Shown: piece after piece, positions 35,891-47,431 of the stretch
How positions within the stretch are numbered: the first letter of the stretch is position 1
Layout: each line of letters opens with the position of its first letter
DNA from: Pseudotamlana haliotis
Lineage (GTDB): Bacteria > Bacteroidota > Bacteroidia > Flavobacteriales > Flavobacteriaceae
DNA: 55,151 nt
Assembly: GCF_008806375.1 (NCBI RefSeq)
Contig: NZ_WAAT01000032.1
Span: 340-55,490, forward strand
Direction: 5' to 3'
Notes under the pieces: generated by a model
What the model saw: only the letters and a program-made list of their open reading frames with translations
Databases searched by the model: none
What the model was told of the DNA's origin: nothing
Translations under genes and position numbers: made by a program

Positions 35891-35966
35891 GGTGGTTGTA
35901 GCTCAGTTGGTTAGAGCATCGGTTTGTGGTACCGAGGGTCGTGGGTTCGAATCCCATCTTCCACCC
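35891..35966 (+). tRNA. tRNA-His (anticodon GTG)
   Basis: The cloverleaf starts with the extra G-1 typical of tRNA-His (GGTGGTTG), D-loop AGTTGGTTA, anticodon loop TTTGTGGT, and T-arm GTGGG-TTCGAAT-CCCAT. The 3' strand is CTTCCAC followed by C; G-1 pairs with this C73. Two adjacent U-U mismatches (positions 5-68 and 6-67) interrupt the acceptor stem. CCA is not encoded. Confidence 0.92.
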
Positions 35967-35973
35967 AAAAGTA

Positions 35974-36005
35974 AAAGCCTTTCAAGAAATTGAAAGGCTT
36001 TTTTT
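35974..36005 (+). terminator. Terminator after tRNA-His
   Basis: Perfect stem AAAGCCTTTCAA (35974-35985) / TTGAAAGGCTTT (35990-36001), loop GAAA, followed by T-run. Confidence 0.88.
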
Positions 36006-36082: not shown

Positions 36083-36090
36083 TAACTTTG
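36083..36090 (+). promoter_or_regulatory. Predicted -7 box (TAACTTTG) of the light-sensor regulator gene
   Basis: Exact TAnnTTTG match 22 bp before the TTG start at 36112. It overlaps TTGTTTATT (36088-36096), a weak relative of the operator half-site found downstream, so weak self-regulation is possible. Confidence 0.55.
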
Positions 36091-36111
36091 TTTATTAAAA
36101 AATAGATTTCG

Positions 36112-37005
36112 TTGAACAATATTAAGACAGATTTTACAATTAAAGATCTTGAGAACCTCTCAGGTATAAAAGCACATACCATTCGAATTTGGGAAAAAAG
36201 GTATAATCTATTAACGCCTAATCGAAGCGATACAAATATTAGGTACTACTCATCAGAAAGTCTGCAAAAGTTATTAAATGTCGCGCTTTTGTATAATAAT
36301 AACCATAAGATTTCTAAAATAGCAGAAATGTCTAATGACACTATTAAAATGAAATCTAGAGAGCTTGCAGTGAAATCGGCCGCTGCAGATGAAGCCATTA
36401 ATGCTTTAAAGCTCGCCATGTTTAATTTTGATAAAGTACTGTTTAATAACACGTATAATAAATTGCTTCACAGAAAAACCTTTCGTGAAATCTTCAAAGA
36501 CGTGTTTGTACCTTTTTTAGATCATCTTGGCCTGTTGTGGCAAACAGGGACAGTGCTTCCTGCTCATGAGCATTTTATATCAAACTTAATTTCTCAAAAA
36601 ATTCAAATAAGTATAGATCAATTAGAGTCTACTGTAACCAATTCAGGAGCGATATATGTGCTGTTTTTGCCAGAAAATGAAATCCATGAATTGGGTTTGA
36701 TGTTTTTAAATTACGAATTAACGCTTAGAGGGTATCGTACCATTTATCTCGGACAAAGTTTGCCATTAAATAACTTAAATTACTTTTTTGATAGCGAAAA
36801 TGATATTTGTTTTGTAACCTCATTAACTGTAAAACCGTATGATGATAAAGTTGTTCCTTACCTTCAGGAAATAGAAGCCGCTTTAAAGGGCACAAAACAT
36901 AAGTTTATTGCCATAGGAAAAAAAACAGCCTTTGCTAATGATTTAAATTTAAGTTCTAATATGGCTATTTATCCATCACTTCTTGATTTTTTGAAAATAT
37001 TATAA
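36112..37005 (+). CDS. MerR-family regulator with B12-binding light-sensor domain (CarH/LitR type)
   Basis: The 297-residue regulator starts at a TTG. Residues 8-75 form the MerR winged helix (FTIKDLENLSGIKAHTIRIWEKRYNLLTP). Residues 90-170 are a four-helix bundle carrying W143 and E153-H154, the W-x9-EH signature that caps adenosylcobalamin in CarH photoreceptors. Residues 175-297 are a cobalamin-binding fold with E-I-H192-E-L-G, where His192 is the expected lower cobalt ligand. In CarH, dark AdoCbl-bound tetramers repress carotenoid genes and light disassembles them. Its position before the carotenoid-photolyase operon and the paired operators downstream fit this role. Confidence 0.9.
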   Translation: MNNIKTDFTIKDLENLSGIKAHTIRIWEKRYNLLTPNRSDTNIRYYSSESLQKLLNVALLYNNNHKISKIAEMSNDTIKMKSRELAVKSAAADEAINALKLAMFNFDKVLFNNTYNKLLHRKTFREIFKDVFVPFLDHLGLLWQTGTVLPAHEHFISNLISQKIQISIDQLESTVTNSGAIYVLFLPENEIHELGLMFLNYELTLRGYRTIYLGQSLPLNNLNYFFDSENDICFVTSLTVKPYDDKVVPYLQEIEAALKGTKHKFIAIGKKTAFANDLNLSSNMAIYPSLLDFLKIL

Positions 37006-37022
37006 TACCATATATAATTATT

Positions 37023-37054
37023 TTGTTTAACTTTATTTTGTTTTTATTAAACAA
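37023..37054. promoter_or_regulatory. Candidate light-sensor operator 1
   Basis: Inverted repeat TTGTTTAAC (37023-37031) - N14 - ATTAAACAA (37046-37054), followed by AAAGTCTA. It has the same arms and spacing as operator 2, 86 bp downstream. Confidence 0.65.
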
Positions 37055-37108
37055 AAAGTCTAAATTTGACTAAAATTCTTCGCAAATTTTTTTTTGCTTG
37101 AATTTAAA

Positions 37109-37140
37109 TTGTTTAGCTTTCAAGTAATTTTGTTAAACAA
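37109..37140. promoter_or_regulatory. Candidate light-sensor operator 2, overlapping the operon promoter
   Basis: Inverted repeat TTGTTTAGC (37109-37117) - N14 - GTTAAACAA (37132-37140), followed by AAGTCTA. It covers the predicted -7 box at 37125-37132, so bound regulator would block transcription. Confidence 0.68.
37125..37132 (+). promoter_or_regulatory. Predicted -7 box (TAATTTTG) of the carotenoid-photolyase operon
   Basis: TAATTTTG matches TAnnTTTG. TTG at 37098-37100 is a possible -33 element. Transcription would start near 37139, leaving a leader of about 68 nt before the fasciclin ATG. Confidence 0.6.
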
Positions 37141-37206
37141 AAGTCTAGTTAACCGAAAATGGACTAAAAAAAATAGAGTAGGTTTTAATCGAAAAAATGT
37201 AATATC

Positions 37207-38178
37207 ATGTTATTAAAAAAAAGATTACCTGTTTGGGCGCTATGTTTATTATTTTGTTTAAGTGTTTTTACTTCATGTAGTAGTGACGATGATTCAAATT
37301 CAGCCCCTGATCCTAAAACTATTGTGGATTTAGCTGTGGAAACTCCAGATTTAAGCATTTTAGTTGCAGCTTTAGAGCGTGCTGATTTAGTGGATGCTTT
37401 AAATGCAGATGGACCTTTCACTGTTTTCGCACCAAATAACGCTGCTTTTCAGGCCTTATTAGATTCTAATCCAGACTGGAATGCTCTAGAAGATATCCCA
37501 GTGGCAACTTTACAATCTGTATTATTATTTCATGTGTTGAATGCTGAAGTTATGGCTTCAGATCTATCGGACACCTATGTAAATACGATGGCTACTGGAC
37601 CGAATGATGAGGCTTTGTCTTTACAAGTAGAAACAATTGGAGCTGTAGAGTTTAATGGGGATGCTAAGCCAATTACTACGGATATTGTAGCATCTAACGG
37701 CGTTATTCATATCATTGATAAAGTGATGTTTCCACCAAATATTGTATCTTTAGCTTTAAATAATGCTGGATTTTCAACTTTAGTAGCTGCATTAACAGAT
37801 AGTAGACATACTACAGATTTTGTTTCTGTGCTTTCGGGAGATGGTCCTTTTACTGTTTTTGCACCAACAAATGATGCTTTTCAAGCCTTATTAGATTCGA
37901 ACGATTCATGGAATGGATTAGGCGATATCCCTATTGAAACTTTAGATGCTGTTTTAAAATATCATGTGGTGAATAATGCAAATGTTCAATCCGATCAATT
38001 GTCTAATGGTGACATTACCATGTTAAGTGGAGGAATGATCACTATAGATTTATCAAGTGGTGCTCAAATTAAAACCTCAAGTAGTCAAACGGTCGACATA
38101 CTTGTTGGTGATGCAACTAGCGATGTGCAGGGTACAAATGGTGTTATTCATGCTATAAACGCTGTGCTTTTACCATAG
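37207..38178 (+). CDS. Lipoprotein with two fasciclin (FAS1) domains
   Basis: This 323-residue protein has a lipoprotein signal (WALCLLFCLSVFTSC) and two tandem FAS1 domains, about 40-175 and 180-322. Each shows the H1 block (DGPFTVFAPNNAAFQALL and DGPFTVFAPTNDAFQALL) and the H2 block NGVIHIIDKVMFPP or NGVIHAINAVLLP. FAS1 domains mediate adhesion; in carotenoid operons they also recall proteins that bind carotenoids. It is the first gene behind the candidate operators. Extracytoplasmic. A carotenoid-binding role is inference from context. Confidence 0.93.
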   Translation: MLLKKRLPVWALCLLFCLSVFTSCSSDDDSNSAPDPKTIVDLAVETPDLSILVAALERADLVDALNADGPFTVFAPNNAAFQALLDSNPDWNALEDIPVATLQSVLLFHVLNAEVMASDLSDTYVNTMATGPNDEALSLQVETIGAVEFNGDAKPITTDIVASNGVIHIIDKVMFPPNIVSLALNNAGFSTLVAALTDSRHTTDFVSVLSGDGPFTVFAPTNDAFQALLDSNDSWNGLGDIPIETLDAVLKYHVVNNANVQSDQLSNGDITMLSGGMITIDLSSGAQIKTSSSQTVDILVGDATSDVQGTNGVIHAINAVLLP

Positions 38179-38224
38179 TAATTTCTATTATGTAAATCAA
38201 TTAATAAGAACATTTAAATAAAAG

Positions 38225-39718
38225 TTGAAAAAGACATTGAAAAAAAACATTTACATTATTGGTTCGGGGTTTTCTGCCTTATCAGCCTCATGTTATTTAG
38301 CAAAAGCTGGATATCAAGTGATTGTTTTAGAGAAAAATAAAACAATAGGAGGTCGGGCAAGGCAGTTGTTAAAAGACGGATTCACTTTTGATATCGGACC
38401 AACCTGGTATTGGATGCCAGATGTTTTTGAGAAATTCTTTGCAGATTTTGGGAGAAAGCCTTCAGATTTTTATGAGTTAGAAAAATTAACTCCTGCCTAT
38501 CAAGTCTATTTTGATAAAGCCGATTCTATTACCATTCCGGGAAACCTAGAAGGTATATATAAGGTTTTTGAAGAAGAAGAAAAAGGCAGCTCAAAACATT
38601 TGAAGGCTTTTCTTAAGTCTGCCGCTTATAATTACGACGTATCTATTAATGATTTGGTTTATAAACCAGGTGCCTCACCTTTAGAGTTGGTAACACCAGT
38701 AACTATTGGTAAAATCACCCAGTTTTTCTCAACGATAAGAACTCAGGTAAGAAAACATATAAAGAGTAAAAAGCTCATTCAAATTCTGGAATTTCCAGTA
38801 TTGTTTCTAGGGGCTAAACCTAGTAACACGCCTGCATTTTACAATTTTATGAATTATGCCGATTTCGGATTAGGCACTTGGCATCCCAAAGGCGGTATGT
38901 ATAAAGTTATTGAAGCGATGGTCGATTTAGCCACATCTTTAGGTGTCGAATTTAGAACGGATGCCAATGTTCAAGAAATTAAGCTAAATACAGATGGTGA
39001 AGTGAATGGTCTAGTTGTAAATGATGAAGTGATTGAAACGAACATCGTTTTAAGCGGAGCGGATTATCACCATACTGAAACCTTATTACCCGAATCGTTT
39101 AGGCAATATTCAGAAAAATATTGGGATAGTAAAGTCTTTGCGCCATCTTCATTGTTATTTTATGTAGGGTTTAATAAAAAATTGGAACATGTTAGTCATC
39201 ATACTTTATTCTTTGATACCGATTTTGATGCGCATGCTAAAACGATTTATGACACACCAAGTTGGCCAGAGAAACCTTTGTTCTATGCCAGTTTTCCATC
39301 TATAACAGATGCTAGTTTTGCGCCAAATAGTCAGGAGTCTGCTACTTTTTTAATACCCTTGGCTCCTGGTATAAAGGATACACCAAAAATTCGTGAACAT
39401 TATTTCAAACTCATTGTCGATCGGTTAGAGTTATTAACCAATCAAAAGGTTGAAGAACATATTCTTTTTAAAGAAAGTTTCTGTGTAAACGATTTTGTAA
39501 AAGACTACAATTCATATAAAGGAAACGCCTATGGTTTGGCAAATATTCTAACACAAACGGCTTTTTTAAGGCCGAAAATTAAGAGTAAAAAAGTGAAGGG
39601 TCTATTTTTCACAGGCCAATTAACGGTTCCCGGCCCTGGGGTTCCACCATCACTTATTTCAGGAAAAATCGCTTCAGATTCAATTTTAAAAACTTACAAG
39701 AATGAAACAATTATTTGA
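38225..39718 (+). CDS. crtI: Phytoene desaturase (CrtI type)
   Basis: This 497-residue flavoprotein starts KKNIYIIGSGFSALSASCYLAKAGYQVIVLEKN, the FAD-binding loop, with IGGRARQLLKDGFTFDIGPTWYW following and GLFFTGQLTVPGPGVPPSLISGK near the end, the bacterial phytoene dehydrogenase signature. It converts phytoene to lycopene. Both possible starts are TTG (38225 or 38237); no ATG fits. Its 3' end overlaps crtB by 17 bp, so the two enzymes are translationally coupled. Confidence 0.96.
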   Translation: MKKTLKKNIYIIGSGFSALSASCYLAKAGYQVIVLEKNKTIGGRARQLLKDGFTFDIGPTWYWMPDVFEKFFADFGRKPSDFYELEKLTPAYQVYFDKADSITIPGNLEGIYKVFEEEEKGSSKHLKAFLKSAAYNYDVSINDLVYKPGASPLELVTPVTIGKITQFFSTIRTQVRKHIKSKKLIQILEFPVLFLGAKPSNTPAFYNFMNYADFGLGTWHPKGGMYKVIEAMVDLATSLGVEFRTDANVQEIKLNTDGEVNGLVVNDEVIETNIVLSGADYHHTETLLPESFRQYSEKYWDSKVFAPSSLLFYVGFNKKLEHVSHHTLFFDTDFDAHAKTIYDTPSWPEKPLFYASFPSITDASFAPNSQESATFLIPLAPGIKDTPKIREHYFKLIVDRLELLTNQKVEEHILFKESFCVNDFVKDYNSYKGNAYGLANILTQTAFLRPKIKSKKVKGLFFTGQLTVPGPGVPPSLISGKIASDSILKTYKNETII

Positions 39719-40544
39719 TGATGTTTCTTACTCGTGTAGTAAGTTGGTCACCCAAAAATATAGTACTTCGTTTACTTTGGCAACTAGAATGTTGGCACCT
39801 AAAATACGTCCCGATATTTATAATATTTATGGTTTTGTTCGCTTTGCAGATGAAATTGTAGATTCTTTTCATGATTACAATAAAGAGCAATTATTTTTAG
39901 AATTTGAAAACGAATACTACGAATCAAAGTCTAGAGGTATTAGTCTTAACCCAATTATAAATGCATTCATTCATACGGTTTACAAATATGACATTTCCGA
40001 AGACTTGGTTAAGGCTTTTTTGAAGAGTATGAAAGCCGATTTATATAAAACTACCTATCATTCTGATGATGAGTATAAAGCTTATATTTATGGATCTGCA
40101 GATGTGGTTGGGCTTATGTGTTTAAAAGTTTTTGTAAATGGTGATCAAGAAAAATACGATGCATTAAAAGATGCCGCCATGCGCTTAGGGTCTGCCTTTC
40201 AGAAAGTGAATTTTTTACGTGATTTAAAGGATGATTTTGAAGTTTTAAACCGATCTTATTTTCCAAATATAAATTTTTCATCTCTAGATGATAATTCTAA
40301 GGCTTCCATTATTAAAGAAATTGAAGAAGATTTTGACTATGCTTTCCAAAATGGTGTTTTAAAACTTCCGGTTGAAGCCAAATTTGGAGTTTATATGGCA
40401 TATCGATATTACCTGAGGCTATTAAAAAAATTAAAAAGTGTATCTTTTTCTGAAATTATGGAAACAAGAATTAGAGTTTCTAATACCATGAAAATAAATT
40501 TATTAGCAAGAAGTTACGTGAAGTATAAATTAAATATTATTTAA
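39702..40544 (+). CDS. crtB: Phytoene synthase (CrtB)
   Basis: This 280-residue squalene/phytoene synthase condenses two geranylgeranyl diphosphates to phytoene. The two Asp-rich motifs that bind diphosphate via Mg2+ are GFVRFADEIVDSFHDY and KVNFLRDLKDDFEVLNRSYF. LATRMLAPKIRPDIYNIYGF is also conserved. No GGPP synthase gene (crtE) is in the window, so precursor must come from elsewhere. Overlaps: 17 bp with crtI and 1 bp (TAATG) with the next gene. Confidence 0.96.
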   Translation: MKQLFDDVSYSCSKLVTQKYSTSFTLATRMLAPKIRPDIYNIYGFVRFADEIVDSFHDYNKEQLFLEFENEYYESKSRGISLNPIINAFIHTVYKYDISEDLVKAFLKSMKADLYKTTYHSDDEYKAYIYGSADVVGLMCLKVFVNGDQEKYDALKDAAMRLGSAFQKVNFLRDLKDDFEVLNRSYFPNINFSSLDDNSKASIIKEIEEDFDYAFQNGVLKLPVEAKFGVYMAYRYYLRLLKKLKSVSFSEIMETRIRVSNTMKINLLARSYVKYKLNII

Positions 40545-40981
40545 TGACACTGTTAATTTTACATATAGTCATGATGCTTGTATCAAACTCGAATACTCCA
40601 GATTTTATTCAAGAATATCATAAGGCTTTAACCAAAGAGAAAGAGCAAGAATTCATTGCTAAGTATGAAAAAAGTAATGAAATTGATATTAAAGCTTATG
40701 TGGTTTCGTTTAAAATGAAGCAAGCAAAATACGAGCGCATGCCTTGGAATAAAATGAAAGTTTTTACTACTTATAAAAATCAATTAGAAGAACTAATTTC
40801 TAAACATCCAGGAAATATGAATTTAAGATATGTTAGGTTGGTTATTCAAGAAAATGTACCAAGTATTTTAAATTATAGTTCGGATATAGAAAACGATAAG
40901 GCCTATTTAAGCAAAATGATGAAACGTAAAGATGACACCGATTATCTAGATCCTTATATCAAAAAAAATACATCACTATGA
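40544..40981 (+). CDS. Uncharacterised protein in the carotenoid operon
   Basis: This 145-residue protein has an N-terminal hydrophobic stretch (MTLLILHIVMMLVSNS) that may be a signal peptide. A helical, charged body follows with QEYHKALTKEKEQEFIAKY, RMPWNKMKVFTTYKNQLEEL, NLRYVRLVIQENVPSILNY and the end DTDYLDPYIKK. I know no function for it. It is locked between crtB (1-bp overlap) and crtZ (4-bp overlap), so it is translated with the pathway. It may be an assembly factor, a carotenoid carrier or a stress protein; the sequence does not decide. Confidence 0.78.
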   Translation: MTLLILHIVMMLVSNSNTPDFIQEYHKALTKEKEQEFIAKYEKSNEIDIKAYVVSFKMKQAKYERMPWNKMKVFTTYKNQLEELISKHPGNMNLRYVRLVIQENVPSILNYSSDIENDKAYLSKMMKRKDDTDYLDPYIKKNTSL

Positions 40982-41433
40982 ACGCAGTGGTTTTTATAGG
41001 AATTACAATGCTAACCTTTGTTGTTATGGAAGGGGTAACCTGGTGTACCCATAAATATGTTATGCATGGTTTTGGTTGGTTTTTGCATGAAGACCATCAT
41101 CAACCGGGATATCCGCATGTTTTCGAGAAAAATGATGCGTTTTTTGTCGTTTTTGCTATTCCTAGTATTTTATTGTTTTACTTTGGAATTAGACGTGAAT
41201 TAAATTACCTTTTCTTTATAGGATTAGGTGTTTTATGTTACGGTGTAGCTTACTTTTTAATTCATGATGTATTGATTCATAGACGATTTAAATGGTTTAA
41301 AAACACTAAAAGTCGCTACTTAAAAGGGTTGAGAAAAGCTCATAAAATACATCATAAGCATTTAGATAAGCCTGACGGCGAATGTTTTGGTATGCTATTA
41401 GTGCCTTTTAAATATTTTAAAAAATCACAGTGA
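40978..41433 (+). CDS. crtZ: Beta-carotene hydroxylase (CrtZ)
   Basis: This 151-residue membrane di-iron hydroxylase has the His-box motifs CTHKYVMHGFGWFLHEDHHQPG, FLIHDVLIHRRFKW and KAHKIHHKHLDKPDGECFG, which bind the iron pair. It adds hydroxyl groups to the beta rings, making zeaxanthin. Three to four membrane helices are visible. Start and stop overlap its neighbours by 4 bp each. Confidence 0.95.
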   Translation: MNAVVFIGITMLTFVVMEGVTWCTHKYVMHGFGWFLHEDHHQPGYPHVFEKNDAFFVVFAIPSILLFYFGIRRELNYLFFIGLGVLCYGVAYFLIHDVLIHRRFKWFKNTKSRYLKGLRKAHKIHHKHLDKPDGECFGMLLVPFKYFKKSQ

Positions 41434-42128
41434 ATACATATTTATACTTATTTCTAAATTTAGGAAGCTTAAGCATCCCATTGCTATACAGTATTTTTGA
41501 AAAGAAATTTCATTTTATACAGTATTTTAAAGCAGCATGTTTTAGCATACTAACGGTTGCTGTTCCTTTTTTAATTTGGGATGCCTTGTTTACCAAAATG
41601 GGAGTTTGGGGATTTAACCCAGATTATCACTTGTCGGTTATGGCTTTAAATGTGCCAATAGAGGAATGGCTATTTTTCTTTTGTATTCCCTATGCTTGTT
41701 TATTTACTTATGAAGTGATACGGTATTATTTGCCAAATTTTAAGTTGTCTAAAGCAGGTGCAGTACTGGTTTGTGTGCTGTTATTAATTTTAACAAGCAC
41801 CTTACTGGTATTCAATTTTGGAAAATGGTATACCTCTGTTAATTTCATTTTTTTCATTATTTTAATTTTATACGGACTCAAAAATCATCTAGAAACCTTA
41901 CAATCTTATTTACCTGTTTTTGCAATAATCTTGATCCCGTTTTTTTTAGTAAATGGCGTGCTAACAGGAAGTTTTATTGAGTCGCCAATTGTTTGGTATG
42001 ACGATACTGAAAACCTTGGGTTTCGTTTATTCACTATTCCTTTTGAGGATGTTTTTTATGCCTTTAACTTGTTGTTTTTAGTTCAATTAGTCTTTAATTT
42101 TTTTAAAATAAAATACCATGCTAAATAA
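41430..42128 (+). CDS. Lycopene cyclase, fused two-domain type (CrtYc-CrtYd-like)
   Basis: This 232-residue membrane protein has two homologous cyclase domains of three helices. The first has WGFNPDYHLSVMALNVPIEEWLFF, the second WYDDTENLGFRLFTIPFEDVFYAFNLL; the PIEE and PFED acidic pairs are the catalytic signature. It closes both ends of lycopene to beta-rings. It starts with GTG, overlapping the crtZ stop by 4 bp, and overlaps tspO by 11 bp. This is the CrtYcd type, not the flavoprotein CrtY. Confidence 0.93.
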   Translation: MNTYLYLFLNLGSLSIPLLYSIFEKKFHFIQYFKAACFSILTVAVPFLIWDALFTKMGVWGFNPDYHLSVMALNVPIEEWLFFFCIPYACLFTYEVIRYYLPNFKLSKAGAVLVCVLLLILTSTLLVFNFGKWYTSVNFIFFIILILYGLKNHLETLQSYLPVFAIILIPFFLVNGVLTGSFIESPIVWYDDTENLGFRLFTIPFEDVFYAFNLLFLVQLVFNFFKIKYHAK

Positions 42129-42591
42129 CAAATACATTCGTTTTCTAATTTTTATAGCTGCTAATTTTCTAGCATTGGGTCTTGGGGTTATTTTCATGGA
42201 AAATGGGCCACAGTCAGAATGGTATACTTCGCTTAATCAAGCGCCGTGGACGCCTCCCAACTGGGCTTTTGGTGCAGCATGGTTTACGATCATGTTTCTC
42301 TTTTCTTTTTACATGACCAAGTTGAGCTTTCAATTTCAACTATTCAGTAAATACCTAATAACGATATACAGTGTACAATGGATTTTCAACGTGAGTTGGA
42401 ATTATATTTTCTTCAATAAGCATGAGGTTTTCATCGGGTTGATTGTAATTACTTTACTTTGGTTGCTGGTGGGTTATTTTACATTTAAATTCTTAAAAGA
42501 ACTTAAATGGTATACGCTATTAATAGTTCCTTATTTAATTTGGATGAGCATCGCAACCAGTTTAAATACCTATATATTATTTAATAATTAG
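42118..42591 (+). CDS. TspO/MBR family protein
   Basis: This 157-residue protein has five membrane helices. It carries the family marks YTSLNQAPWTPPNWAFGAAW, FSFYMTKL and WNYIFFNKHEVFIGL, rich in Trp. TspO proteins bind porphyrins and in photosynthetic bacteria tune carotenoid and pigment gene expression to light and oxygen, which fits this operon. It overlaps the cyclase gene by 11 bp. Confidence 0.93.
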   Translation: MLNNKYIRFLIFIAANFLALGLGVIFMENGPQSEWYTSLNQAPWTPPNWAFGAAWFTIMFLFSFYMTKLSFQFQLFSKYLITIYSVQWIFNVSWNYIFFNKHEVFIGLIVITLLWLLVGYFTFKFLKELKWYTLLIVPYLIWMSIATSLNTYILFNN

Positions 42592-42600
42592 AATACCTAA

Positions 42601-44019
42601 ATGAAGATTCTCGTTACAGGAACTACTGGTTATATAGCAAAGCGTTTAATCCCGATTTTGTTAGAAAATAACCATGCTTTAGTTTGTTGTGTTCGAGATA
42701 TAAATAGAGTTCCTTTAGAATTTAAAAATCATCCTTTAGTAGAATTTTTAGAAGTTGATTTTTTAAAGCCATCAAAAGTAAAATTTCCAGACGATTTAGA
42801 TGCTACGTATTATCTAATTCATTCTATGTCCACCAGCAGTTCTAATTTTGAAGATTTAGAAAATACATGTGCTGAAAACTTTAAAAGTTTACTTGAAAGC
42901 ACCCAGTGTAGGCAAGTGCTTTATTTAAGCGGTATTGTAAATGCAGATACTTTATCTAAGCACCTAAAGTCGCGACTTCAGGTTGAAAAAACACTGCGTT
43001 CAGATAGCTATAGTTTAACCACCTTCAGAGCAGGAATTATTGTTGGTAGCGGAAGTGCCTCCTTCGAAATTATTAGAGACCTTGTTGAAAAATTACCCGT
43101 GATGGTCACGCCTAAGTGGTTAGATACAAAAACGCAGCCCATAGCTATTCGAGATGTTTTAAGTTTTTTGGAAAAAGCTTTAGGACGGGAAGAAACCTTT
43201 AATAAATCATTTGATATTTGTGGTCCTGAAATTTTAACCTATAAAGAGATGTTGCTTCAATTTGCCGAAGTTAGAGGCTTTAAACGTTACATCTTTACTT
43301 TACCAGTTTTAACGCCGAAACTATCTTCATATTGGTTGTACTTCGTGACGTCTACTTCGTTTAAGCTAGCGCAAGCACTGGTAGATAGTATGAAAGTTGA
43401 AGTTATAGCAAAGCCTAGTGAAATTAATAAAATTATAGGCGTAGAACCCATAGATTATAAAACTTCTGTAGCATTAGCATTTCAAATTATCGAACAAAAC
43501 ACGGTCGTTTCTAGTTGGAAAGATGCTATAAGTAGTGGAGTTATTCACAACCAACTAAGTGAACACATTCAAATACCGGAATTTGGTTGTTTTAAAGATA
43601 TTCGTTCTAGAAAGATAGAAAATGAAGCTCAGACCATGCTTAAAATATGGTCTATTGGTGGTAAAAATGGTTGGTATAAACTAAATGGCTTATGGAAGTT
43701 AAGAGGGTTTATAGATCAAATATTTGGAGGCGTAGGTTTGCGTAGAGGTAGGAGAGATGATACCGACTTAAGAGCGGGAGATGCCCTAGATTTCTGGAGA
43801 GTATTATTAGCAGATAAAGAAAAGAAAAGAGTATTGCTTTTCGCTGAAATGAAATTACCTGGAGAAGCTTGGTTGGAGTTTGAAATTATAGAAGGAAACT
43901 TGTACCAACGCGCTGTTTTTAGACCTAAAGGGCTCTTAGGAAGATTGTATTGGTACGCCGTACTCCCTTTTCATGCTTTTGTATTTAATGGCATGATTGA
44001 CGAATTAGTAGCTACTTAA
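42601..44019 (+). CDS. SDR-family NAD(P)-binding protein with DUF2867 tail
   Basis: This 472-residue protein starts KILVTGTTGYIAKRLIPILLENN, an extended-SDR nucleotide loop, with YYLIHSMSTSSSNFEDLE next and TFRAGIIVGSGSASFEIIRDL in the substrate region. The C-terminal part (about 315-470, WSIGGKNGWYKLNGLWKLRGF and AVFRPKGLLGRLYWYAVLPFHAFVF) is a DUF2867 helix-grip domain. Together these suggest a reductase or isomerase for a hydrophobic ligand. The operon context makes a carotenoid or quinone substrate possible, but that is inference. Confidence 0.9.
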   Translation: MKILVTGTTGYIAKRLIPILLENNHALVCCVRDINRVPLEFKNHPLVEFLEVDFLKPSKVKFPDDLDATYYLIHSMSTSSSNFEDLENTCAENFKSLLESTQCRQVLYLSGIVNADTLSKHLKSRLQVEKTLRSDSYSLTTFRAGIIVGSGSASFEIIRDLVEKLPVMVTPKWLDTKTQPIAIRDVLSFLEKALGREETFNKSFDICGPEILTYKEMLLQFAEVRGFKRYIFTLPVLTPKLSSYWLYFVTSTSFKLAQALVDSMKVEVIAKPSEINKIIGVEPIDYKTSVALAFQIIEQNTVVSSWKDAISSGVIHNQLSEHIQIPEFGCFKDIRSRKIENEAQTMLKIWSIGGKNGWYKLNGLWKLRGFIDQIFGGVGLRRGRRDDTDLRAGDALDFWRVLLADKEKKRVLLFAEMKLPGEAWLEFEIIEGNLYQRAVFRPKGLLGRLYWYAVLPFHAFVFNGMIDELVAT

Positions 44020-44029
44020 AAATATAGTA

Positions 44030-44530
44030 ATGTCCAAAAATAACGATATAGAGATCTTCGATTTTAATTTAAATGTAAACCCAAACAAATGGTATCAAAT
44101 TAGTGATACGGTTATGGGTGGCGTTTCTAGTTCAAACATGCTCATTGATGAACATGGTAATGGTGTTTTCACTGGAAATGTGTCACTTGAAAATAATGGC
44201 GGGTTTACCATGACACGCCTGCCAGTAAAAATTAAAAAAGAAAAGCATCATAAAAAAATAGAGCTACACCTGGTTGGTGATGCTAAGAGGTATCAGTTTA
44301 GAATAAAATCTACAAGTACTCAATTTTACTGGTACATACATCCCTTTGAAGCGGAAAAAGGGAAACATAAAGTTGAGCTTCTTCTAAAAGACTTTTACCC
44401 ATCATATCGTGGTAATATATTAAAACTGGATAATTTTTCAGAAGATTCTATCATGGAAGTTGCCTTTTTCATAGGAAACAAAAAAAATGAAATTTTCAAT
44501 TTAGTTATAGATAAAATAATCTTAACATAA
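44030..44530 (+). CDS. CIA30 family protein
   Basis: This 166-residue protein has NPNKWYQISDTVMGGVSSSNM, GNVSLENNGGFTMTRLP and KRYQFRIKSTSTQFYWYI, the beta-jellyroll signature of the CIA30 (complex I intermediate-associated protein 30) family. No signal peptide. In bacteria it often accompanies SDR and photolyase genes, but its role is not known. It follows the SDR gene by 10 bp. Confidence 0.88.
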   Translation: MSKNNDIEIFDFNLNVNPNKWYQISDTVMGGVSSSNMLIDEHGNGVFTGNVSLENNGGFTMTRLPVKIKKEKHHKKIELHLVGDAKRYQFRIKSTSTQFYWYIHPFEAEKGKHKVELLLKDFYPSYRGNILKLDNFSEDSIMEVAFFIGNKKNEIFNLVIDKIILT

Positions 44531-44564
44531 TTAAAGAGAACCTTTTAAACTTAATTGAAGTAAA

Positions 44565-45050
44565 ATGATCCAATTCAAAAAACATTCAGGAATATATACG
44601 CTTAGTACTGAGCAAATTTTAAACATACCATTAGAGGAAGCTTGGGTATTCTTTAGTAATCCTAAAAATTTAGCTAAAATAACACCTTCTAAAATGGGTT
44701 TTGAAATCACCTCAGACGTTGAAAGAAGTGCTTATCCAGGACAAATCATCAGCTATAAAATAGGTGTTCTTCCTGGGATCCAACAAAATTGGGTCACAGA
44801 AATCACACAGGTAAAAAATCATGAGTTTTTTATTGATGAACAACGCTTCGGTCCTTATAAAATGTGGCATCATGAACATTTTTTTGAAGCACTTCCTGAC
44901 GGAAAAACATTAATGCGTGATAAAGTGTCTTATAAATTACCGTTTGGTTTTTTAGGTCATTTTATACATAACATGTATATAAAAAGTGAGTTACAAACCA
45001 TTTTTAATTACAGATATAGCACCTTAGAAACTCGATTCAATGGAAGATAA
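44565..45050 (+). CDS. SRPBCC (coenzyme Q-binding/START-like) protein
   Basis: This 161-residue helix-grip domain protein has STEQILNIPLEEAWVFFSNPKNLAKITPSKMGF, then YKIGVLPGIQQNWVTEITQV, FIDEQRFGPYKMWHHEHFF and a C-terminal helix. Members bind lipids, quinones or polyketides. It sits between the CIA30 and photolyase genes and overlaps the photolyase by 11 bp. A role in handling a hydrophobic pigment or antenna molecule is possible but unsupported by specific residues. Confidence 0.9.
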   Translation: MIQFKKHSGIYTLSTEQILNIPLEEAWVFFSNPKNLAKITPSKMGFEITSDVERSAYPGQIISYKIGVLPGIQQNWVTEITQVKNHEFFIDEQRFGPYKMWHHEHFFEALPDGKTLMRDKVSYKLPFGFLGHFIHNMYIKSELQTIFNYRYSTLETRFNGR

Positions 45051-46332
45051 AATAGCTGTTTTTTGGTTTCGACGTGATTTGCGTTTGGAAGATAATGTTG
45101 CGCTTCATCATGCTTTAAACTCAGGGTTTAAGGTATTACCAATTTTTATTTTTGATGAAGAAATTATTAATACGTTACCTAAGCAAGATGCGCGCATAAC
45201 TTTCATCTACAAGAGTTTAAAAGAAATCGATAATCAGCTTAAAACTATTGGCAGCTCATTGCGCGTTTTAAAAGGTGAGCCTTTGGAAATATGGGATAAG
45301 CTGGTTTTAGATTATAAGGTTAAAAAGGTTTTCTTCAATAAAGATTACGAACCCTATGCCTTAAAAAGGGATGAAAGTGTGAAGGCTTTACTTAAATCTA
45401 AAGGCATAGAAACTCACACGTATAAAGATCAAGTCATTTTTGAGGCGGATGAAGTTTTAAAAGCAAACCAAACGCCGTATACTGTTTACACACCTTATAA
45501 AAACCAATGGTTAAAACAATTTGATGTTGATAAACATGTTAAGTTATTCGATTGTCAAGAGTTTAAAAGTAATTTTGTTTCTGTAAATATAAATTTTCCA
45601 AAGTTAGTAAGTATTGGTTTTGAAGAAAGTTCTATTAAAGTAAAACCCTATAGCCTTGATGATTTGGTGCAGTATGATGCTGTACGTGATTTTCCAGCCT
45701 TAGATAAAACATCGCATTTGTCGCCTTATTTAAGGTTTGGTTTAGTAAGTATTCGTCAGGTGGTAAAACATGCTTTTAACACTAACGCAGTGTTTTTAAG
45801 CGAACTTATTTGGCGTGAATTTTTTATGCAAATATTATTTAATTTCCCTAAAGTGGTTACTCAAAATTTTAAACCAAAGTATGATGCCGTAATATGGAGA
45901 AATGATCCAACAGATTTTAAAAAATGGTGTGCTGGTCAAACTGGTTACCCTTTAGTTGATGCTGGTATGCGGCAATTAAACCAAACGGGCTATATGCACA
46001 ATCGGGTTCGTATGATTACTGCTGGGTTTTTATGCAAACACCTTTTAATTGACTGGAGGTGGGGTGAAGCCTATTTTGCTGAAAAGTTATTAGATTTTGA
46101 GCTGGCTTCCAATAATGGAAACTGGCAATGGGCAGCAGGTACGGGTTGCGATGCAGCACCTTACTTCAGGATATTTAATCCGACCACTCAGATTCAAAAA
46201 TTCGATAAAAATTTAGAATATATTAAAAAGTGGGTGCCAGAGTTTCAAGAGTTGACTTATCCTAAGCCTATAATCAATCACAAAGAAGCACGCGAACGTT
46301 GTTTAAAGGTTTATCGTGAAGCATTAAATTGA
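45040..46332 (+). CDS. phr: Deoxyribodipyrimidine photo-lyase (class I)
   Basis: This 430-residue flavoprotein has an N-terminal antenna domain (VFWFRRDLRLEDNVALHHAL) and a C-terminal FAD domain with LSPYLRFGLVSIRQVV, LVDAGMRQLNQTGYMHNRVRM and NGNWQWAAGTGCDAAPYFRIFNP. The conserved Trp chain and the WRWGEAYFAEKLLDFELASN block point to DNA repair rather than a pure cryptochrome. It uses blue light to split UV dimers. It is the last gene of the light operon, followed by a gap and then the M28 gene's terminator. Confidence 0.94.
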   Translation: MEDKIAVFWFRRDLRLEDNVALHHALNSGFKVLPIFIFDEEIINTLPKQDARITFIYKSLKEIDNQLKTIGSSLRVLKGEPLEIWDKLVLDYKVKKVFFNKDYEPYALKRDESVKALLKSKGIETHTYKDQVIFEADEVLKANQTPYTVYTPYKNQWLKQFDVDKHVKLFDCQEFKSNFVSVNINFPKLVSIGFEESSIKVKPYSLDDLVQYDAVRDFPALDKTSHLSPYLRFGLVSIRQVVKHAFNTNAVFLSELIWREFFMQILFNFPKVVTQNFKPKYDAVIWRNDPTDFKKWCAGQTGYPLVDAGMRQLNQTGYMHNRVRMITAGFLCKHLLIDWRWGEAYFAEKLLDFELASNNGNWQWAAGTGCDAAPYFRIFNPTTQIQKFDKNLEYIKKWVPEFQELTYPKPIINHKEARERCLKVYREALN

Positions 46333-46351: not shown

Positions 46352-46392
46352 AAAAAAAAGCTGATTAAAAAGAGATACTTTCTAATCAGCTT
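46352..46392 (-). terminator. Terminator of the M28 peptidase gene, also facing phr
   Basis: AAGCTGATTA (46358-46367) pairs with TAATCAGCTT (46383-46392); on the minus strand it is followed by eight T. It separates convergent phr and the peptidase gene. Confidence 0.82.
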
Positions 46393-46420
46393 CTGTAAGT
46401 TTATAATAGAAGTGAAATTT

Positions 46421-47431
46421 TTAATCCAACTTCACACGGTTTTCGCGGTTAGCCAATTCCCAAGCTGTATAAAAGATTAGGCGTGTACGTGTTTCTAAAA
46501 ATTCATAGTTTATTTTATCTGGTGTGTCACTTGGCTTGTGATAATCATCGTGTGTTCCATTAAAATAGAAAATCACCGGAATGTTGTTTTTTGCAAAATT
46601 GTAGTGGTCTGAACGGTAATAAAAACGGTTTGGGTCGTTTTCATCATTATAAGTGTAGTCTAAATCTAAATTCACATATTTATTATTTACCGCTTCAGAA
46701 ACATCATGTAGCTCTTGACTCAGCTTATCTGATCCAATAAGGTATAAGTAGTTATCACCACCTTCGTGGTTGTCGTCTACACGCCCAATCATATCAATGT
46801 TTAAGTCGGTTACCGTATTTTCTAAAGGAAAGATAGGTTCAACATCTGTGTAATATTTAGAACCTTGTAAACCAATTTCTTCTGCGGTAACGTGTAAAAA
46901 CAGAATAGATCGTTTCGGGCCTTTACCATCTAATTCAGCGGCCTTAAAAGCTTTTGCGATTTCTAAAATAGCTACTGTTCCAGAGCCATCATCATCAGCA
47001 CCATTATTTATATCGCCGTTAGCAGACACACCAATATGGTCTAAATGTGCCGAAATTACTAGAATTTCATCTGGTTTTTCAGAACCTTTAATGTAAGCCA
47101 ATACATTTTCAGAATCTTTTGTGCCGTTAGGAAGGAAGGAAGCTGGAACTTTTTGATGATAATTACCTTCGGCAATAGGAGAAGGAATGTCATTTGCCAC
47201 GTAAAAGTCTTTTAAAAATTCCACGGCTTTCTTTTGTCCGGGTTCACCGGTGCCACGACCTTCAAATTCATCAGAAGCATAAATATAAAGGTTCTTTTTA
47301 AGGTCTGCTGCAGTGATTTTTTCTGCATAGGTTTCAGCTGAAGCTGTTGTAGTCTCTACATTATTCTGAGATTCGCCTTTACAGGAAGTGAATAAAAGAG
47401 AAAGGCATACAAGTGTTAGTAAATTTTTCAA
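46421..47431 (-). CDS. M28 family zinc aminopeptidase, lipoprotein
   Basis: This 336-residue protein has a lipoprotein signal (LTLVCLSLLFTSC) and an M28 catalytic domain. Metal ligands are visible in SAHLDHIG, NGADDDGSGTVA, HVTAEEIGLQGSKYY and NIDMIGR, with a late His in YRSDHYNFAKNNIPVIFYFNG. It should cleave N-terminal amino acids from peptides in the periplasm or at the outer membrane. Single gene, with its own terminator. Confidence 0.93.
   Translation of the reverse strand: MKNLLTLVCLSLLFTSCKGESQNNVETTTASAETYAEKITAADLKKNLYIYASDEFEGRGTGEPGQKKAVEFLKDFYVANDIPSPIAEGNYHQKVPASFLPNGTKDSENVLAYIKGSEKPDEILVISAHLDHIGVSANGDINNGADDDGSGTVAILEIAKAFKAAELDGKGPKRSILFLHVTAEEIGLQGSKYYTDVEPIFPLENTVTDLNIDMIGRVDDNHEGGDNYLYLIGSDKLSQELHDVSEAVNNKYVNLDLDYTYNDENDPNRFYYRSDHYNFAKNNIPVIFYFNGTHDDYHKPSDTPDKINYEFLETRTRLIFYTAWELANRENRVKLD

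Follow-up and report, generated by a model that had tools for sequence, protein, structure and literature searches.

The locus at 36,112 to 46,332 of a 55,151-nt stretch of Pseudotamlana haliotis DNA (NCBI RefSeq assembly GCF_008806375.1, contig NZ_WAAT01000032.1, positions 340 to 55,490), analysed as a whole and called the window below, raises the question of how genes for carotenoids, a FAS1 lipoprotein, TspO and DNA photolyase are switched together. Behind a gene for a CarH-like MerR regulator (carH below) they form one apparent operon. An earlier note on this DNA proposed repression in darkness by tetramers of the regulator with bound adenosylcobalamin (AdoCbl), and joint induction of pigment and UV repair by light. 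The likely switch was missed there: an inverted repeat, TTTGTTTAA-N16-TTAAACAAA (34 bp), which is predicted to be the operator. The region 37023-37140 that the note selected for a gel shift contains two copies of the repeat, O1 and O2. The locus is probably a light regulon of the CarH-like kind, packed into a single operon, with an AdoCbl-bound dark repressor on the repeats that is released by light. The elements of the control region are as follows.

36083..36090, + strand: predicted -7 promoter box TAACTTTG of the regulator gene, from aligned carH upstream regions
36087..36120, no strand: putative weak operator copy O3 with 3 mismatches, right arm across the TTG start of the regulator, from the repeat scan
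36112..37005, + strand: CarH-like regulator with MerR and B12 domains, 297 aa, TTG start (Pfam, NCBIfam, phmmer, Foldseek)
37022..37055, no strand: predicted operator O1, perfect TTTGTTTAA-N16-TTAAACAAA, sole perfect copy in the genome
37108..37141, no strand: predicted operator O2 with 2 mismatches, -7 box TAATTTTG inside at 37125-37132, from the repeat scan

The repeat was examined in relatives regarding its position and its co-occurrence with the regulator; all counts of repeats, regulators and targets given here ignore relatedness. With at most 2 mismatches it was found behind the regulator gene in 17 of 40 regions, compared with 0 of 2175 control windows. At up to 3 mismatches a spacer of 16 was present in 18 of these 40 regions, and each other spacer from 6 to 26 in 0-8. 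In 149 genomes of the family, 332 matches (≤1 mismatch) were detected vs. 24 for the reversed pattern. At least one such match occurred in 107 of 111 genomes with a close regulator, in 4 of 9 with the divergent type only and in 5 of 29 where none was detected. Outside the family, in a class-wide sample (149 genomes minus four family members), 60 of the 83 genomes that have a homologue contain one, compared with 6 of the 62 that have none.

The divergent second regulator type is 34-41% identical and retains Wx9EH, a motif discussed below. Its loci (L080-L098 and L102) carry FAS1 alongside in opposite orientation in 19 of 22 cases. Between carH and FAS1 of this type the half-site reads TTTGTCHAA with the 16-nt spacing kept (13 of 19 regions vs. 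0 of 247 controls), a pattern that was derived from the same 19 regions and is thus partly circular. Two regulator types with different half-sites and the same spacing are a natural pair for specificity studies. Four genomes (G034, G107, G123 and G132) hold 7, 6, 11 and 8 operator copies, respectively, and may have larger regulons, judging from these copy numbers.

The position relative to the promoter was also examined. The word TAnnTTTG, a -7 promoter box known in Bacteroidetes, is fused to TTTAA upstream of carH, and the TTTGTTTAA-like word could be anchored in 37 of 39 such regions (38 of the 40 loci plus the window). The anchored promoters have T at -4 in 36 of 37 and A at -3 in 34 of 37 cases; no -33 element stood out in this alignment. 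Of 46 oriented target sites, 22 carry TAnnTTTG immediately ahead of the right arm (coding strand, offset 17), and none does so at this offset on the other strand. At offset -4 the counts were 8 (coding strand) and 5 (other strand). Any protein bound to the repeat would sit on the promoter, which makes repression the straightforward reading. The same word is found again at photolyase loci that lie apart from carH, in a few of them with an inverted copy 25 nt on. In the window a sigma-70 scan did no better than shuffled sequence (52 vs. 46.3 ± 6.2).

The perfect repeat was found only once in the 3.35-Mb genome, before the operon, and two of the eight places with at most 2 mismatches belong to this locus (the window is part of contig C60). 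The other six, each with 2 mismatches, were rejected as targets: three are inside open reading frames (ORFs), one was without a nearby gene in the scan, and two precede genes for a shikimate kinase-like protein (assigned by eye) and a DUF3575 protein, neither of them convincing. Hence, the regulon looks confined to this locus in its own genome. The lone 11-mer TTTTGTTTAAC was discarded as a signal, with no genome-wide enrichment (11 vs. 22 in the control); only the spaced pair is informative. Tandem sites at G000:C50:191211 and 191295 have TTAAACGTTTAA cores, a different palindrome that probably belongs to another regulator.

Eleven genes on the + strand follow the regulator, in a span that ends at 46332.

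37207..38178, + strand: FAS1 (fasciclin) lipoprotein with two domains, first gene of the operon (Pfam; Cys24-S-S-D-D-D)
38225..39718, + strand: crtI, phytoene desaturase (NF058655 above cut-off)
39702..40544, + strand: crtB, phytoene synthase (PF00494)
40544..40981, + strand: 145-aa all-helical protein, function unassigned (predicted structure, locus comparison)
40978..41433, + strand: crtZ, putative beta-carotene hydroxylase (similarity to plasmid proteins)
41430..42128, + strand: lycopene cyclase with CarR domain (Pfam, NCBIfam)
42118..42591, + strand: TspO/MBR (PF03073)
42601..44019, + strand: NAD-binding epimerase-like and DUF2867 protein (Pfam; the operator precedes the same family elsewhere)
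44030..44530, + strand: CIA30-domain protein (PF08547)
44565..45050, + strand: SRPBCC-like protein (PF03364 match below cut-off)
45040..46332, + strand: DNA photolyase (NCBIfam)

All ORFs sit where the earlier note placed them, and profile scans (Pfam, NCBIfam) bore out its list of pigment, FAS1, TspO and photolyase genes apart from crtZ. Its gene order needs one correction: FAS1 was listed after the crt genes but is actually the first gene, 201 nt behind the regulator. Between FAS1 and photolyase 6 of the 10 gene junctions overlap, in agreement with the described overlapping of most gene ends; the other 4 are gaps of 9-46 nt. Genes that in several relatives lie separately behind the same repeat are thus gathered into a single operon in the window.

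For the survey of these separate targets, 70 loci with 73 sites were taken from the repeat search of the 149 genomes. Of these loci 30 are automatic and 40 hand-picked, the latter mostly with the exclusion of places next to carH, so that crtI is under-counted and target shares are biased; one representative of each cluster was scanned and singletons were mostly left out. The gene starting beside the site encodes FAS1 at 16 sites (13 loci), CrtI at 11, an SRPBCC protein at 7, a GLPGLI protein at 5 and an unknown secreted protein at 4. Epimerase-like/DUF2867, mevalonate-kinase-like and HtpG-like (by eye) proteins were found at 3 sites each, and a YceI protein, a peroxiredoxin, a CrtW-like ketolase and others at one or two each; the mevalonate-kinase-like and CrtW-like matches are below the NCBI cut-offs. 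In 12 cases the FAS1 site has MnmA as its divergent neighbour, possibly as a bystander. The operator was seen before YceI (L177, L204) and mevalonate-kinase-like genes (L197, L202, L222), which may act in the isoprenoid pathway, and its position suggests that precursor supply is part of the regulon in some relatives. At L160 and L226 it lies between the HtpG-like gene (by eye) and a gene for a TetR-like regulator.

The genes instead of the repeat were also taken as the starting point. The 30 FAS1 loci that scored best come from as many genomes, out of 90 that gave a match; the repeat (≤2 mismatches) precedes 26 of these genes, 13 times perfect; the four exceptions include G055 without detected carH and G007 with the divergent type only. 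In a second set (best 80 of 155, with the organisms named), which may share species with the first, it precedes 28 of 80 genes (≤2 mismatches), namely 26 of 45 in L278-L322 and 2 of 35 in L323-L357, the two being from Dokdonia and Flavobacteriales. No repeat was found in loci of this set titled cyanobacterium or proteobacterium. Among 30 SRPBCC loci, 17 are clustered with carH, crt, tspO, DUF2867 or CIA30 genes. The remaining 13 have the repeat (≤3 mismatches) in nine cases, eight of these with ≤2, and lack it in four. All nine show a photolyase-like sequence within 2 kb, one of them (G079) without detected carH.

Since the same repeat precedes carotenoid, FAS1 and photolyase genes where these are apart in relatives, and co-occurs with the regulator, they can be regarded as one regulon. 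The joint control of pigment and repair claimed by the earlier note is therefore well supported as a prediction, whereas the underlying photochemistry is unlikely to be that of Thermus thermophilus CarH (TtCarH). In darkness, the regulator with AdoCbl would occupy the TTTGTTTAA-N16-TTAAACAAA repeats. With two copies before FAS1, one of them over the -7 box, RNA polymerase would be kept off, as their position suggests; the weak copy O3 over the regulator's own start may serve autoregulation. By analogy with TtCarH and CtMerR, green or blue light would cut the cobalt-carbon bond and the repressor would leave. A single transcript would then yield the surface FAS1 lipoprotein, a zeaxanthin-type carotenoid, TspO, four proteins of unassigned role and photolyase. 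A conserved DNA site for a photoreceptor-like regulator means that light regulons could be read from genome sequence.

The regulator itself carries a MerR domain (PF13411, E 2.4e-13) and a B12-binding_2 domain (Pfam). Thermus CarH was the top match in phmmer (E ~1.5e-13) and in Foldseek against the PDB (6e-14), at ~20% identity in the fold alignment. The residues W143-x9-E153-H154 and E190-I-H192-E-L-G that the earlier note had assigned to AdoCbl binding were confirmed exactly and align to W131, E141, H142 and H177 of TtCarH. All 23 aligned proteins, which cover both regulator types, retain the adenosyl-capping W/E/H and the His that ligates cobalt. Wx9EH was detected in 58 of 60 family loci, the remaining two not being readable in full; a further match in L262 is N-terminal of the DNA-binding domain and false. 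ExHx2G (E190-I-H192-E-L-G195) is exact in 55 of the 60, with Ala for Gly in L091, L095 and L097 and two loci unreadable in full. In 7 of 18 class-level loci Ser, Ala or Val is found at this Gly position, with ExH kept. A homologue is present in 242 of 299 sampled family genomes, and crtI, crtB and crtZ follow it in 39 of 40 close-type regions (exception L064). The own genome contains a single PF01923 adenosyltransferase and a single cobalamin riboswitch, which makes a supply of AdoCbl plausible.

Several results weigh against a light-released, AdoCbl-bound repressor on these repeats. Behind carH, 19 of the 40 regions hold nothing near the repeat (6 or more mismatches). Upstream of carH the 16-nt spacer was found in 29 of 40 (≤3 mismatches), but spacers 25 and 26 reached 15 and 19, and the right arm overlaps the Met-Asn-Asn codons there. 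The repeat is also present in five genomes in which no regulator was detected. Completeness is below 90% for G022, G079 and G147, and 99 and 96% for G047 and G116, respectively; in G079 the repeat precedes FAS1 as well as SRPBCC. The adenosyltransferase occurs in 137 of 149 genomes and, being near-ubiquitous, says little about CarH. The regulator misses the cut-off of the NCBI CarH equivalog NF052513 (77.7 of 400 bits, E 8.4e-22). The rest of the B12 motif is described as x41-SxV/T-x22-27-GG (PMC8156234; sources given by PMC number are cited for the parts of their text that were available). The regulator has S237-L-T239 at the correct spacing, followed after 29 residues by G269-K270 in place of Gly-Gly, and the full motif was found in 0 of 23 aligned proteins. 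Furthermore, His132 of TtCarH, which forms the bis-His light state, corresponds to Gln144. TtCarH H132A largely stays a tetramer in light according to PMC10442372, which also cites an earlier report in which this variant did disassemble.

The residue after the motif Trp is Q in 50, G in 17, T in 3, S in 2 and H in 2 of 74 distinct family proteins. His152, present in 47 of the 74, is a possible stand-in for His132, which is a guess. AdoCbl binding and a response to green light persist in CtMerR, with Arg at the His132 place, and in SasPcob, with Gln, and the former still monomerises (PMC11796333, available text). Thus, the loss of His132 does not exclude light action. Lacking the bis-His partner, the regulator must have a light state other than the TtCarH one, and with Gly-Gly also missing, its photochemistry is unlikely to be a plain copy. 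Since these defining features of CarH are lacking, the protein is filed as CarH-like and not as CarH proper. It is placed in a divergent Bacteroidota CarH-like branch that probably works like CarH, which poses the question how a relative without His132 and the Gly-Gly loop can switch.

The missing residues could also point to a B12-independent relative of CarA, which would repress the same operon but receive its light or stress signal through a different protein or ligand. In CarA the B12 motif is canonical although the protein acts without B12, and class II LitR works with a LOV protein (PMC8156234, PMC9758184, both for the available parts). Besides the lost Gly-Gly, His after the Trp in no more than 2 of the 74 proteins fits this explanation. 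However, Wx9EH is absent from CarA and was kept throughout the aligned proteins and in nearly all family loci, and CtMerR and SasPcob demonstrate AdoCbl binding and green-light response without His132. A CarA-like mode of action is therefore regarded as unlikely.

The conserved ligand residues and the cobalamin riboswitch would also agree with a vitamin sensor, in which AdoCbl binding reports the B12 status and light plays a minor part in nature. However, pigment, photolyase and related genes make up the recognised targets, and no B12 gene was recognised among the annotated clusters in the sampling of one representative each with most singletons left out; we consider such a sensor very improbable. 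Least probable is that the repeat belongs to another regulator of the same genes and carH merely travels with the cluster. The 5 of 29 genomes with the repeat and no detected carH, two of them nearly complete, agree with this. But the repeat adjoins carH itself, co-occurs with it inside and outside the family, and in the divergent type the half-site changes to TTTGTCHAA with the 16-nt spacing kept, although this pattern is partly circular. The CarH-like light repressor remains the preferred explanation.

Compared with CarH of T. thermophilus and Myxococcus xanthus (LitR class I), the regulator shares the MerR domain, four-helix bundle, Rossmann fold, W/E/H cap, His cobalt ligand and adjacent carotenoid genes, and CarH gave the top PDB fold matches. 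In contrast, it has no Gly-Gly and Gln for His132, the target set is headed by FAS1, and the repeat is inverted, 25 bp from arm to arm and overlaps the -7 box. CtMerR of Chloracidobacterium (PDB 8jbs/8jbt), from the part of its description that was available and that gave nothing on DNA targets, is likewise CarH-like without His132; its GxxW, EH and GxxxP are kept here, while its GxxH is NxxH (N in 20 of 23). The LitR class II regulons of Pseudomonas (PplR/PmlR) also comprise light-inducible genes with photolyase and a short-chain dehydrogenase in the cluster, but in these regulators the B12 domain is reduced to its four-helix half and a LOV protein is the partner, according to the available part of PMC9758184, which mentions no FAS1. 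A MerR-crtI-crtB-crtZ cluster with the same core gene order, in which the MerR gene is named, was reported for Nonlabens spongiae (PMC11855829, available part); neither an operator nor a connection to FAS1 is described in that part. MliR of Bizionia was rejected as the same protein; it has 109 residues and no effector domain in the accessible text of PMC9478572.

Many relatives have the repeat, most often in front of FAS1 genes, which makes it likely that the FAS1 product is a core part of the light response, overlooked so far. Its lipobox Cys24 is followed by S-S-D-D-D, and Cys24 and Asp27-Asp28 are invariant in 21 of 21 aligned proteins. Acidic residues after the lipobox Cys are the export signal of Bacteroidetes surface lipoproteins, and the sequence fits such an export. 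The closest named homologues (best 80 of 155) are from Tenacibaculum, with 74 and 65% identity. The protein matches the algal carotenoid-binding AstaP at E 2.7e-10; animal FAS1 proteins match better. AstaP (PDB 8c18) has the FAS1 domain in common with it, but FAS1 here is a two-domain lipoprotein. Carotenoids are bound by the FAS1 domains of AstaP, but many other FAS1 proteins also have the tunnel, and SynAstaP, a cyanobacterial protein induced by high light, failed to bind zeaxanthin (PMC10147662, available text). Pigment binding by FAS1 is thus an idea and not a finding; adhesion in light is an alternative role. A Bacteroidota-wide divergent CarH-like branch that controls a light regulon via the shared 34-bp operator and switches by a non-bis-His route, with FAS1 as most constant non-pigment target holding carotenoid at the cell surface, a bacterial light-induced counterpart of AstaP, is conceivable but doubtful. 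A function for flavobacterial FAS1 lipoproteins would come within reach. No CarH operator and no link of FAS1 to light in flavobacteria was found in a literature search, for which subscription papers were mostly beyond reach.

At the borders of the locus, a tRNA-His gene (35892-35966) and a terminator-like hairpin (35973-36002) are located 5' of the regulator gene, and a convergent gene (46421-47431) comes next after the operon. No terminator on the operon strand was listed past photolyase. The hairpin at 46356-46394 is listed for the minus strand only, the strand of the convergent gene, hence no terminator defines where the operon ends on its 3' side. In two other genomes, both of the genus (L033, L034), the regulator is followed by the same set of eleven genes. 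For crtZ no convincing match in Pfam or NCBIfam was obtained; proteins from 109 plasmid records, of which 95 are Pantoea, share ~43% identity with it. Those among the matches listed are annotated as sterol desaturase family and are presumably CrtZ. The gene for the 145-aa protein is also located between crtB and crtZ in the relatives L033, L034, L037 and L049. The model of this protein is confident (predicted local distance difference test score, pLDDT, 87.6). A structure search gave no significant PDB match (best E 0.18); the non-significant fold matches include a haemophore and a sterol transporter.

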